A stretch of DNA of 64,000 bases from Aquiluna borgnonia (GTDB lineage: Bacteria > Actinomycetota > Actinomycetes > Actinomycetales > Microbacteriaceae). Under the pieces are notes generated by a model, which had not been told where the DNA came from, made no database searches, and worked only from the letters and a program-made list of their open reading frames with translations. Position 1 is the stretch's first letter. Each line of letters opens with the position of its first letter. The stretch lies in NCBI RefSeq assembly GCF_013283855.1, contig NZ_CP054056.1, positions 1,178,001-1,242,000 of the forward strand, written 5' to 3'. This document shows, piece after piece, positions 2,926 to 9,655 of the stretch. A program made the translations under genes and the position numbers.

Positions 2926-4113
2926 CTAAGAGAATAGCGCCTGGGCGATAACTTCCCCCGGCGCTACACCCCTTGGGATTGCGAAAGTGGCAGAGCCGAT
3001 TGGCAGGGTCCAGCGGTTCAGCAGGTCCAGCTCGTCGAGCCTCTGCTGCATCGGTAGGTACTGAGTGGCGATGTCGCGCTGGTAAGCGCACCAAAGCAAA
3101 CCAACATCCATAGAGCCCTCAGCTGTGATCTGCTCCTCGTAGCTAAATGGTCTGCGGAATATTGGGGCTGCCGTTCCAGAATCCGAGGCCCTACGAATGT
3201 GTGCGAAGTCAGGAATGACCTTTAGGCCCGCAGCGGTCCTTGCCTCATAGTCTGGGAGATCCGATTCCTTTTCTCCGGTGAGCGGAGCACCACTTGCGAG
3301 CCTTCTGCCCACCGACTCTTCTTTACTGGCGGTGCCCAGCTGGTCCCAGCTATCAAGGTTCATGGCGATGCGCCTGAATACCAGGTAGGTGCCGCCAACC
3401 ATCCACTCAGGTCCGCCGTCTGCCCATACCGTTAAGTCGAATTCGTTGGAGCCAAGCACCGGGTTGGCGGTGCCGTCAACCTGACCCATCAGATTTCGGT
3501 GGGTCACTCCCGAGGGAACCATGCCTGGGGTGTGAGAAAAACCAGCCTGATTCCACCGCACCTTGGCAAAGGGCAGCGAGTCTCGAACCAGCGAGCGAAC
3601 CCCGTGACTGAGAACAACTGGATCATCAGCGGCAGCGTGAATCAACACATCTCCCCCAGAGAATTCCGAGCGCAGCGCATCGATAGAAAAAGCCGGGAGT
3701 TCAATTAGCCCCGGCGGCATTGGCAGGTTGAGCTTTTGAAACAGGCTTGGCCCAAACCCGACATAGGCACTGAAGCTTGCAGCGCCCATAGAGAGCTCTG
3801 GGGATGGGTCTGCCAATACCGGTTCACCCTTGGCAAGGCGCTCAATGTCATCGGTAATCAACCCCATCCAGCGCAGCATGTCTGCGAGGTTGGTTCCCTC
3901 GAGCAAATCAAACGCCACCATGTTGGTGACTGCCTGGATAGGAACCTCAATGCCCATCTGGTGCTCACCGAAAAACTCCAGTGAGCGCTTGGCCGTTGCG
4001 CTCTCGGCCGATTCGGCCGCCACCTGAGCCGCAGCCACCGAGCCGGCCGTAGCTGAAACGGCAGCGGTAGCGGCTACGGCAGACCCGGTTAGGAAGCCTC
4101 TGCGGGAAACCAA
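2926..4113 (-). CDS. Tat-exported DyP-type peroxidase (EfeB-like)
   Basis: 395 residues. The N-terminus SRRGFLT followed by an Ala-rich segment is a twin-arginine signal, so the folded haem protein is exported. DyP landmarks are GQVDGTANP (the GxxDG motif with the catalytic Asp) and the proximal haem histidine in FAHIRRA, followed by RRPFSYEE. The family covers dye-decolourising peroxidases and EfeB deferrochelatase. No efeU or efeO is adjacent; the upstream partner is a PCu(A)C copper chaperone, so the job is more likely linked to copper or peroxide stress. Translation starts at TTG (4113), directly after the TAA of the chaperone gene (TAATTG), suggesting translational coupling. Confidence 0.88.
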   Translation of the reverse strand: MVSRRGFLTGSAVAATAAVSATAGSVAAAQVAAESAESATAKRSLEFFGEHQMGIEVPIQAVTNMVAFDLLEGTNLADMLRWMGLITDDIERLAKGEPVLADPSPELSMGAASFSAYVGFGPSLFQKLNLPMPPGLIELPAFSIDALRSEFSGGDVLIHAAADDPVVLSHGVRSLVRDSLPFAKVRWNQAGFSHTPGMVPSGVTHRNLMGQVDGTANPVLGSNEFDLTVWADGGPEWMVGGTYLVFRRIAMNLDSWDQLGTASKEESVGRRLASGAPLTGEKESDLPDYEARTAAGLKVIPDFAHIRRASDSGTAAPIFRRPFSYEEQITAEGSMDVGLLWCAYQRDIATQYLPMQQRLDELDLLNRWTLPIGSATFAIPRGVAPGEVIAQALFS

Positions 4114-4608
4114 TTAGTGATCCATGCCCTCTTCTGAGTGGTAGTCCTCATCGCCACCGACGGTTGGTTTTGCAACGACCGACTCAATTGTCAGGTCAAC
4201 TGTCCCAAAATCAAAAGTGACAGCAATTTCGTCACCGGCAACAACATCTGTCTTTAGGTCCATCAGCATCATGTGGTTGCCACCCGGCTCCAGGGTCGCG
4301 CTCTCGCCAGCTGGAATCACCAAGCCACCTTCAATTGCCTGCATCACCATTTCTCCGCCGGACATCGCCATCTCGTGAATCTCAACCACGCCGGCAACCT
4401 CGGTGGCACCGCCCACCAGGACAATCTCCTGGTCGGTGTTGTTGGTTATGGTGCCAAAGACTGCGGTCATTCCGCCGGTAACCGAGGTCTCTGAAGACTT
4501 GATCCAGACATCTGTCACTTCAATCTCCGGCTTTGCCATTTCTTGGCTATTCGCGGTGCAACCGGTAAGAGCCAGTGCAGCGGCCAAAAGTAACGCAATT
4601 TTCTTCAT
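4114..4608 (-). CDS. PCu(A)C copper chaperone lipoprotein
   Basis: 164 residues. A lipoprotein signal with lipobox LTGC (Cys at about 17) tethers it to the outer face of the membrane. The PCu(A)C copper-binding pattern is visible as HEMAMSGGEM and, further on, NHMMLMDL (H-x-M ... M ... H-x-M type). The C-terminal tail is His/Met/acid-rich. Proteins of this family deliver Cu(I) to cytochrome oxidase or buffer periplasmic copper. SD AGGA lies 10 nt before the ATG. The gene probably forms an operon with the DyP gene, and a palindromic operator candidate overlaps its promoter at 4666-4682. Confidence 0.9.
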   Translation of the reverse strand: MKKIALLLAAALALTGCTANSQEMAKPEIEVTDVWIKSSETSVTGGMTAVFGTITNNTDQEIVLVGGATEVAGVVEIHEMAMSGGEMVMQAIEGGLVIPAGESATLEPGGNHMMLMDLKTDVVAGDEIAVTFDFGTVDLTIESVVAKPTVGGDEDYHSEEGMDH

Positions 4609-4664
4609 GAATTCAGATCCTTGTCAGGGGGTCAGGAGAGACTTTTCCGGCTCTCGATGGGCTA

Positions 4665-4682
4665 ATTCTACAACGAGTAGAA
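4665..4682 (-). promoter_or_regulatory. promoter and palindromic operator candidate of the copper chaperone operon
   Basis: Perfect 6-bp inverted repeat TTCTAC-N5-GTAGAA at 4666-4682. Read on the minus strand, its right part includes TAGAAT (4670-4665), a good -10 hexamer 57 nt before the ATG of the PCu(A)C gene. A bound repressor would occlude the promoter. The half-site CTAC-N5-GTAG also occurs in the nrdH upstream region. Confidence 0.5.
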
Positions 4683-4801
4683 ATTACTTTTTGGCAAATT
4701 AGGTGAACATCCCGCGACACGCGGGAGTTGCTACGGCCTTAAAGTTCAAGTTGTGGGTTAATGTTCGAGAAATAACTAAATAAGAGAAAAAAATCACGTG
4801 T

Positions 4802-4818
4802 CACTACTAGATGTAGTG
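4802..4818. promoter_or_regulatory. palindromic operator candidate upstream of nrdH
   Basis: CACTAC-TAGAT-GTAGTG is a perfect 6-bp inverted repeat with a 5-nt centre. It lies just before an extended -10 element TGCTAATGT (4825-4833), so it covers the -35 region of the likely nrdHIEF promoter. Position suits an NrdR-type repressor site, but the 17-bp odd spacing and the lack of a clear second box differ from the classic tandem 16-bp NrdR boxes. Confidence 0.45.
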
Positions 4819-4854
4819 GTTAAGTGCTAATGTAGTAAATCCGCGATTTGCGAA

Positions 4855-4871
4855 AAATTTGTCTCAAATTT
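4855..4871. repeat. inverted repeat in the nrdH leader
   Basis: AAATTTG-TCT-CAAATTT, 7-bp perfect arms with a 3-nt loop, lies in the presumed 5' leader of nrdH. It could be a protein site or a weak RNA hairpin. No T-run follows, so it is not a terminator. Confidence 0.4.
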
Positions 4872-4917
4872 GATAAAAACCGGGGTTTTCGGACCCCTCG
4901 AACCAGGAGGAACACCA

Positions 4918-5142
4918 ATGGCGGTGACCGTTTACACGCTCCCAGCCTGCGTACAGTGCGACAGCACCAAGCGCATGCTGCAGCGTAACCAGATTGAGTA
5001 TGCCGAAGTCGACATGTCTCAAGACCCAGTGGCCTTGGAAATGGTCAAGACCATGGGTTACACCGCTGCCCCAGTTGTAGTCGCAGGCGACGAGCACTGG
5101 AGTGGTTTCCGCATGGACAAGATCCAAGCAATCTCCGCCTAG
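4918..5142 (+). CDS. nrdH: glutaredoxin-like redoxin NrdH
   Basis: 74 residues, the usual NrdH length. Small cytosolic thiol redoxin that reduces the active-site disulfide of class Ib ribonucleotide reductase, using thioredoxin reductase as electron source. The redox motif CVQC sits at about residues 11-14 (YTLPACVQCDSTKR), and the C-terminal GDEHWSGFRMDKI is the NrdH-specific WSGFRPD-like signature. The start is the ATG at 4918, preceded at 7 nt by the near-perfect SD AGGAGG; the longer in-frame extension to 4870 has no SD. It is the first gene of nrdHIEF. Confidence 0.95.
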   Translation: MAVTVYTLPACVQCDSTKRMLQRNQIEYAEVDMSQDPVALEMVKTMGYTAAPVVVAGDEHWSGFRMDKIQAISA

Positions 5143-5157
5143 CTAAGGACTCCTGAG

Positions 5158-5546
5158 ATGTTCGATTTGGTTTATTTCTCGAGCGTCTCAGAAAACACCA
5201 AGCGGTTCGTCGACAAGCTAGGGGCAAATGCGGTTCGGATCCCACTGAGGTCCGAAGAGGCAGCAAAGTTTGAACACGATCGGGACAGTGTCTTGGTAGT
5301 GCCCACCTACGGTGGCGGGAACGATGAATCAACTGTTCCAAAACAGGTAATCAAATTCTTGAACAATCCGGAAAACCGGAAACACATCAAGGCGGTTATT
5401 GCCGGGGGAAACACCAATTTTGGTTCTCACTTCTGCAAGGCCGGCGACATAGTCGCCAGCAAACTCGGGGTTCCGGTGCTCTACCGGTTCGAGGTCACTG
5501 GCACCCCAGAAGACGTAATTGAAGTAAAAGAAAGGCTGGTCACGCT

Positions 5547-5565
<19 letters not shown>
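5158..5565 (+). CDS. nrdI: flavodoxin-like class Ib RNR maturation protein NrdI
   Basis: 135 residues. NrdI is an FMN flavodoxin that supplies oxidant to assemble the dimanganese-tyrosyl radical cofactor of NrdF. The N-terminal phosphate loop [12 protein letters not shown] and the FMN-contact stretch [15 protein letters not shown] are present. SD (AAGGACTCCTGAG) is fair. It lies 15 bp after nrdH and overlaps nrdE by 19 bp, so translation of the two is coupled. Confidence 0.95.
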
Positions 5566-8703
<3,138 letters not shown>

Positions 8704-8715
8704 AAAGGAAGCAAC

Positions 8716-8766
8716 ATGGACTGCAATTGCGGTAAAGACACTTGCGGCTGCGGCGGCAAGCACTAA
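8716..8766 (+). CDS. 16-residue cysteine-rich microprotein at the end of the nrd operon
   Basis: Reads MDCNCGKDTCGCGGKH and then TAA. Four cysteines form two CxC pairs (C3/C5, C10/C12; CxC-x4-CxC), with a C-terminal His; five of the 16 residues are Gly or Asn. A good SD (AAAGGAAG) stands 5 nt before the ATG, the gene starts 12 nt after the nrdF stop, and the operon terminator begins 21 nt after its stop, so it is placed as a true last cistron. The composition fits a metallothionein-like or metal-delivery peptide. I do not recognise a family. It is too short for most gene callers. The function is unknown; a metal or redox role beside NrdF/NrdI is inference. Confidence 0.7.
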   Translation: MDCNCGKDTCGCGGKH

Positions 8767-8787
8767 CTAGACAAAACAACTAACTAG

Positions 8788-8815
8788 GCCGGCTAAGCGA
8801 TTAGCCGGCTTTTTT
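8788..8815 (+). terminator. rho-independent terminator of the nrd operon
   Basis: 9-bp GC-rich perfect stem GCCGGCTAA / TTAGCCGGC with a GCGA tetraloop, followed by six T (8810-8815). Confidence 0.95.
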
Positions 8816-8833
8816 AGCCCCGAGAGGAGTGAA

Positions 8834-9655
8834 GTGGATAGCGCACTGATACTGGCGTTTGCCGTCACCCTCGGGGCTGGCCTTGCAACCGGAATCGGTT
8901 CGGCCCTGGCATTTTTCACCAAGACCACAAACAAGTCTTTTTTTGCCGTTGCGATGGGCTTTTCCGCCGGCGTAATGCTGTATCTGTCGTTTGTTGAGAT
9001 CCTCCCGAAATCAACCAAATACATTCAAGAAACGACCGGGGAAACCGCGGCCATGGGGATTGCCGCGGCCGCTTTGGTAGCAGGCATGATTGTGATGGCC
9101 GTGATCGATGCACTGGTTCCCTCTGGAGCCAACCCCCATGAGAACACTGAGGTCGAACTGCTGGGTGAGTCTCAGGCCAAGAGCGAAAACCGAGCTAACA
9201 AAGCGCTTCTGCGCACCGGACTGTTTGTCGCCCTAGCCATCGCCATCCACAACTTCCCTGAGGGCCTTGCAACCTTCCTTTTGGTGCTGGATGACCCAGA
9301 GATAGGTATCGCACTCGCGATTGCAGTTGCCATGCACAACATTCCCGAGGGCATCGCGGTCTCGGTTCCCGTCTACTACGCCACCAAATCCCGCGCCAAA
9401 GCCTTTCGGCTCAGCTTTCTCTCCGGCCTTGCCGAACCCGTGGGTGCTGTGATTGGCTATCTGCTTTTGGCCCAGTTTCTGAATTCATTCTCGCTGGGAG
9501 TCATCTTTGCCATGGTGGGCGGGGTGATGGTGTTTCTCGCCATCGACACCCTGCTCCCAACCGCAAGAAACTCGGCCCGCGGACACCTAACCGTCTACGG
9601 TTTCATCGCCGGTGTTGCAGTGATGGCTGCAAGCTTGGTGTTGCTTAGGCTCTAG
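8834..9655 (+). CDS. ZIP family divalent metal transporter (ZupT-like)
   Basis: 273 residues, about eight membrane helices, with a His-poor acidic cytoplasmic loop around residues 95-120. The two ZIP metal-site motifs are clear: HNFPEGLATF in helix 4 and HNIPEGIAVS in helix 5, the layout of the bacterial ZupT group. It imports Zn(II), and in this group often Mn(II) or Fe(II). Translation starts at a GTG (8834) behind a good SD (GAGAGGAG). It has its own region after the nrd terminator. The closeness to a Mn/Fe-dependent RNR is suggestive, but the metal cannot be told from sequence. Confidence 0.9.
   Translation: MDSALILAFAVTLGAGLATGIGSALAFFTKTTNKSFFAVAMGFSAGVMLYLSFVEILPKSTKYIQETTGETAAMGIAAAALVAGMIVMAVIDALVPSGANPHENTEVELLGESQAKSENRANKALLRTGLFVALAIAIHNFPEGLATFLLVLDDPEIGIALAIAVAMHNIPEGIAVSVPVYYATKSRAKAFRLSFLSGLAEPVGAVIGYLLLAQFLNSFSLGVIFAMVGGVMVFLAIDTLLPTARNSARGHLTVYGFIAGVAVMAASLVLLRL

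Follow-up and report, generated by a model that had tools for sequence, protein, structure and literature searches.

A putative four-cysteine microprotein gene conserved as the fifth cistron of nrdHIEF in Luna actinobacteria

The class Ib ribonucleotide reductase (RNR) operon nrdHIEF of Aquiluna borgnonia is followed by a 16-codon open reading frame (ORF), MDCNCGKDTCGCGGKH plus a stop codon, which is the translation of positions 8716–8766 of the window, the whole 64,000-nucleotide stretch of DNA analysed here. Judged by comparison with relatives, this ORF, with its four cysteines, almost certainly encodes a selected peptide and is a real protein gene, and we infer that it is translated. On the same grounds the Luna actinobacteria (Aquiluna/Rhodoluna) are taken to carry it as a fifth cistron of nrdHIEF, Aquiluna and Rhodoluna being the two genera that make up the Luna-1 subcluster (PMC12422013). 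The predicted peptide probably, though far from certainly, acts by binding metal. Neither the microprotein nor any other small ORF after nrdF was reported in the open literature searched.

The identities of nrdH, nrdI, nrdE and nrdF come from Pfam and NCBIfam profile matches, and the features of the region are as follows.

4918–5142, + strand: nrdH, glutaredoxin-like (TIGR02194)
5158–5565, + strand: nrdI, flavoprotein of class Ib cofactor assembly (TIGR00333)
5547–7724, + strand: nrdE, class Ib RNR large subunit (TIGR04170)
7741–8703, + strand: nrdF, class Ib RNR small subunit, directly upstream of the microprotein ORF (PF00268, TIGR04171)
8704–8711, + strand: Shine-Dalgarno-like A/G-rich AAAGGAAG (sequence reading, aligned with relatives)
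8716–8766, + strand: putative microprotein ORF MDCNCGKDTCGCGGKH, CxC-x4-CxC, 16 codons (translation, kept after nrdF in relatives, purifying selection)
8788–8815, + strand: intrinsic terminator with a 9-bp stem, GCGA loop and T6 (sequence reading, fold, conserved position in relatives)
8834–9655, + strand: ZupT, ZIP family metal importer, the usual but not constant next gene (PF02535; NF003243 above cut-off)

The listed nrdH ORF opens at 4870, and since its match to TIGR02194 begins at residue 19, translation probably starts at the ATG of residue 17. The coordinates and spacings of the preliminary description proved exact on re-reading: the nrdF stop codon TAG occupies 8701–8703, 12 nt from the microprotein ATG, and the microprotein stop codon TAA ends at 8766, with the terminator hairpin starting 21 nt on. 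The latter is formed by the stem arms GCCGGCTAA and TTAGCCGGC (hairpin 8788–8809, followed by TTTTTT), has a folding energy of about -18 kcal/mol and is not among the entries of a simple consensus terminator scan. An Rfam search of window 4600–9000 gave no match of note, its one sub-threshold match lying on the opposite strand inside nrdF. Most relatives carry GGAGG as the Shine-Dalgarno sequence in the aligned loci.

Selection on the encoded peptide is evident from the pattern of substitution. Mapped by parsimony on a 23-leaf nrdF tree, about 69 changes fall in codons 2–12, of which 13, 18 and 38 are at codon positions 1, 2 and 3, respectively, and each of the ten changes that fall in one of the four Cys codons of the 23 sequences is silent. 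On this one gene tree and with a simple model ignoring multiple hits, though by a large margin, codons 2–12 show 21 residue changes against ca. 50 under neutral simulation, with none of 20,000 neutral simulations as low as 21 and none keeping all Cys; the pairwise pN/pS is 0.19. Indels within the ORF are of whole codons (L118, L003, L094, L004), giving a microprotein of 15–16 residues. Unlike the ORF interior, the flanking spacers vary by single bases: the 5′ spacer, counted from the first base of the nrdF stop codon, is 12, 13, 15 or 16 nt, and the 3′ spacer ca. 11–22 nt among relatives. An excess of silent changes, in-frame indels and a conserved start codon and Shine-Dalgarno sequence are thus all found, and frame, Shine-Dalgarno and cysteines are conserved in relatives, so that the gene passes the comparative test proposed in the preliminary description.

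Residue conservation is centred on the thiols. The four Cys are invariant in all 24 carrier genomes, while Asp2 (Gly in two) and Asn4 (Ala in one) are nearly so and Lys7 is missing only from L118; besides Met1 and Cys there is no strictly invariant side chain. Within the window's genus the final His is retained, but the two sister genera have Ser or Gln in its place, so this residue, noted in the preliminary description, cannot be an essential or core ligand.

The microprotein has a narrow distribution. The pattern ATG-x-C-x-C-x4-C-x-C is matched only once in the 1.36 Mb genome, by this ORF. Across a family sample of 400 genomes, 11 genomes belonging to three genera match the form of the pattern with Asp2, and the microprotein is present in 3 of the 85 genera sampled in the family. 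None of the 395 other genomes of an order sample has the Asp2 form, and none of the 393 other genomes of a class sample has a related form. These pattern searches outside the family found the microprotein in no genome, and viral contigs gave no match to the pattern. Among 70-odd other actinobacterial loci, the Cys-rich ORFs seen after nrdF were unconvincing and without a clear Shine-Dalgarno. A strict GGAGG search of the genome for other Shine-Dalgarno-preceded CxC ORFs found none, this being a pattern that would also miss a Shine-Dalgarno of the AAAGGAAG type. At the search sensitivity used, the gene is therefore lineage-restricted by pattern occurrence, and the suggestion that it may be common does not hold.

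In the window's genus, nrdF was found in 21 genomes and has the microprotein after it in 20 of them, a count that leaves out two incomplete genomes (G403 and G412) where nrdF was not found. Nineteen have the full-length pattern directly after nrdF, and the twentieth carrier, G406 (L118), has the variant MDCNCGGSCGCGTKH, with one codon fewer between the Cys pairs. The exception is G013 (L113), a complete genome with nrdF, terminator and zupT but without the microprotein ORF. A match elsewhere in G013, MKCSCDCEKCGC (L098), was rejected as a relocated copy because it lies antisense to a long membrane-protein ORF and is attributable to chance; a match in G431 (L109), not near nrdF, is likewise an unrelated chance match. 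Outside the genus, carriers comprise three Rhodoluna-like genomes (G288, G349 and G431) and one genome of a third genus (G144). Where their nrdF is full-length, the Rhodoluna-like carriers have an NrdF 95% identical to that of the window, and non-carriers of their own genus one that is 83–88% identical. Furthermore, the nrdF tree places nrdF of these carriers (L136, L137, L152) within the window's genus, a placement made without a support test. Together this suggests that the nrd operon moved horizontally between genera with the ORF aboard. In the Rhodoluna-like genus g11, about two thirds of the sampled genomes (e.g., G250), including one that is 99% complete, have no NrdF match.

Most genomes of the window's genus have ZupT as the gene following the ORF. 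G410 lacks zupT and has an Nramp gene directly after the microprotein ORF, while in G095 and G400 the ORF and terminator are kept and the long ORF that comes next runs in the opposite orientation; searches of G095 found neither ZupT nor Nramp, and in G400 zupT lies ca. 1.5 kb further on. Conversely, G013 and G205 have nrdF, terminator and zupT in order without the ORF. These two sets of genomes indicate that the ORF tracks nrdF rather than zupT. Nramp also directly follows nrdF in about nine distinct Rhodoluna-like loci lacking the ORF, corresponding to twelve listed rows of which three repeat a region (L005/L141, L008/L146, L009/L148). The position at the end of the nrd operon, as first described, thus stands, with the addition that a metal importer, ZupT or Nramp, usually occupies the slot after the ORF.

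Several other explanations of the ORF have been weighed. With only 16 codons, and absence from one genome (G013), it could be a chance ORF without function, yet the selection statistics, the position and the exclusively silent changes in the Cys codons refute this, leaving it barely credible. It might instead be a Cys tail added to NrdF by read-through or frameshifting, as in the window the ORF happens to share the reading frame of nrdF, starting 15 nt beyond the first base of the nrdF stop codon. In relatives, however, the offset of 12, 13, 15 or 16 nt does not keep the frame, while the ORF's own Shine-Dalgarno and ATG are kept; this drift refutes a fusion as a general explanation, and its chance is close to nil. 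A more elaborate proposal is that of a Cys- or metal-sensing leader peptide, in which ribosome stalling at the Cys codons would control the terminator and read-through into zupT. Mycobacteria have poly-Cys leader ORFs of this kind, whose Cys codons serve to attenuate operons and which resemble the present case in having a short Cys-rich ORF followed by a terminator. The order ORF, terminator, zupT fits, and the ca. 18 nt from the T-run to the zupT start leave little room for a separate promoter. Unlike the mycobacterial leaders, however, the ORF is retained with its terminator where the long ORF that follows runs the other way (G095, G400) and is lost where zupT and terminator persist (G013, G205). 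Pairing of the ORF with the 5′ arm of the terminator is inconsistent (0–9 pairs), and its folding is no stronger than that of synonymous recodings (mean z +0.6), indicating no selected RNA structure. The consensus fold of relatives contains only the terminator and a hairpin in the ORF, the latter not above synonymous controls, with no consistent antiterminator. Residues other than Cys are also conserved. Neither of the two marks of an attenuator, a co-directional regulated gene downstream and a conserved antiterminator, is thus in place, and the double dissociation and RNA structure tests leave a zupT attenuator improbable.

The remaining alternatives accept a peptide product. A very short Cys-rich ORF would suit the precursor of a modified metal-binding peptide (RiPP/methanobactin type) needing a tailoring enzyme, but MbnB/TglH/ChrH (PF05114) was found in 0 of 7 genus genomes searched and no tailoring enzyme is encoded among the immediate neighbours, so that such a precursor is very unlikely. 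The main rival to metal binding is a thiol-redox role, which is possible if rather doubtful, whereby CxC disulfides would shuttle or buffer reducing equivalents for NrdE/NrdH, or shield NrdF/NrdI from oxidation. An operon shared with nrdH, and four invariant Cys with Met1 as the only other strictly invariant residue, are consistent with this; on the other hand, NrdH is already present to serve NrdE, and the next-gene slot holds metal importers rather than redox genes.

Metal binding by the microprotein is the reading given somewhat better than an even chance. Here the four invariant thiols of CxC-x3/4-CxC would enclose a single soft metal ion, whether Zn(II), Cu(I) or Fe(II), or else an Fe-S unit, in the manner of a miniature metallothionein. 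By established coordination chemistry Mn(II) is a poorer partner for thiolates than Zn(II), Cu(I) or Fe, and since it is bound weakly by them, a guard against competitor metals, or a role with Fe or Fe-S, is favoured over a Mn carrier. Co-produced with NrdF, the peptide may keep thiophilic metals out of the Mn site, or hand them around it, while NrdI and oxidant build the cofactor. A more specific and tentative proposal, with rather less than an even chance, is that this peptide of 15–16 residues could be a natural metallopeptide, among the smallest metal-binding proteins encoded by a gene, and a dedicated class Ib RNR accessory factor, encoded at the end of the RNR operon, that guards or assists NrdF metallation. 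Escherichia coli NrdEF is Mn-dependent and is activated with the help of the small protein MntS, for which inhibition of the exporter MntP is the proposed mechanism (PMC4361602). MntS resembles the microprotein in being small and linked to Mn supply and NrdEF activation, and differs in being induced with MntH under Mn scarcity rather than encoded in nrdHIEF (PMC4361602). Size is no obstacle to an Fe-S unit, as designed peptides down to 12 residues hold [4Fe-4S] (PMC12329447). These ferredoxin maquettes and the 12-residue ambidoxin are equally short peptides with Cys ligands, but are not natural, ambidoxin being heterochiral and the maquettes copying the ferredoxin CxxCxxC (PMC10946529, PMC12329447). 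The usual ZupT or Nramp/MntH importer as next gene favours a metal-thiolate peptide near a Mn-dependent NrdF and, along with the Mn-dependence of E. coli NrdEF and the precedent of MntS, makes metal handling the best guess. Against this, importers also follow nrdF without the ORF (G205, G013), so the importer context belongs to nrdF as well as to the ORF, and CxC pairs equally fit thiol-disulfide chemistry beside NrdH and NrdE. The microprotein is, in addition, not essential to the enzyme, as the complete genome G013 has an intact nrdF without it.

Short fungal Cu-metallothioneins and the mycobacterial MymT are very small, about a quarter Cys, with CxC motifs in a background of Gly, Asn, Ser and Lys, and the microprotein is alike in each respect, having 4 Cys in 16 residues and two CxC pairs against a metallothionein range of ca. 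15–35% Cys. It differs in its tie to the RNR operon and in having only four Cys in 15–16 residues, for probably one metal or a small cluster, where most metallothionein families have seven or more and a polynuclear cluster. It is not filed as a metallothionein for this reason, the likeness shown being one of composition. The A-type Fe-S carriers IscA/ErpA carry a C-terminal CGCG motif, which the TCGCG stretch of the microprotein resembles, although this likeness, a lead only, covers five residues without fold or homology.

Selection of Mn over iron, zinc and copper in class Ib RNR is only partly understood mechanistically, with NrdI supplying the oxidant, and we know of no dedicated metal-handling partner of this enzyme. 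A co-operonic tetrathiolate peptide would provide a concrete and easily synthesised candidate. Within the Luna clade, genome editing has been reported in Rhodoluna lacicola (PMC11577799). More generally, the streamlined genomes of abundant aquatic bacteria keep selected genes of 15–16 codons. Genes this short fall under the length cut-offs that gene finders usually apply, so that standard programs would be expected to miss the microprotein, and comparative evidence can certify them.

The surroundings of the operon also bear on metals. Divergent to nrdHIEF, on the - strand at window 2926–4608, are genes for a PCu(A)C copper chaperone and a Dyp-type peroxidase (deferrochelatase-like), so that the RNR operon is flanked by copper/iron genes on one side and the ZIP importer on the other. 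The importer beside class Ib RNR seems to have been exchanged between unrelated families, being ZupT in the window (8834–9655) and Nramp in G410 (L104/L154) and in many Rhodoluna-like genomes. An in-frame TAG interrupts the ZupT homologue at G323:C26:4625-5452, through decay or assembly error, next to an intact microprotein ORF.
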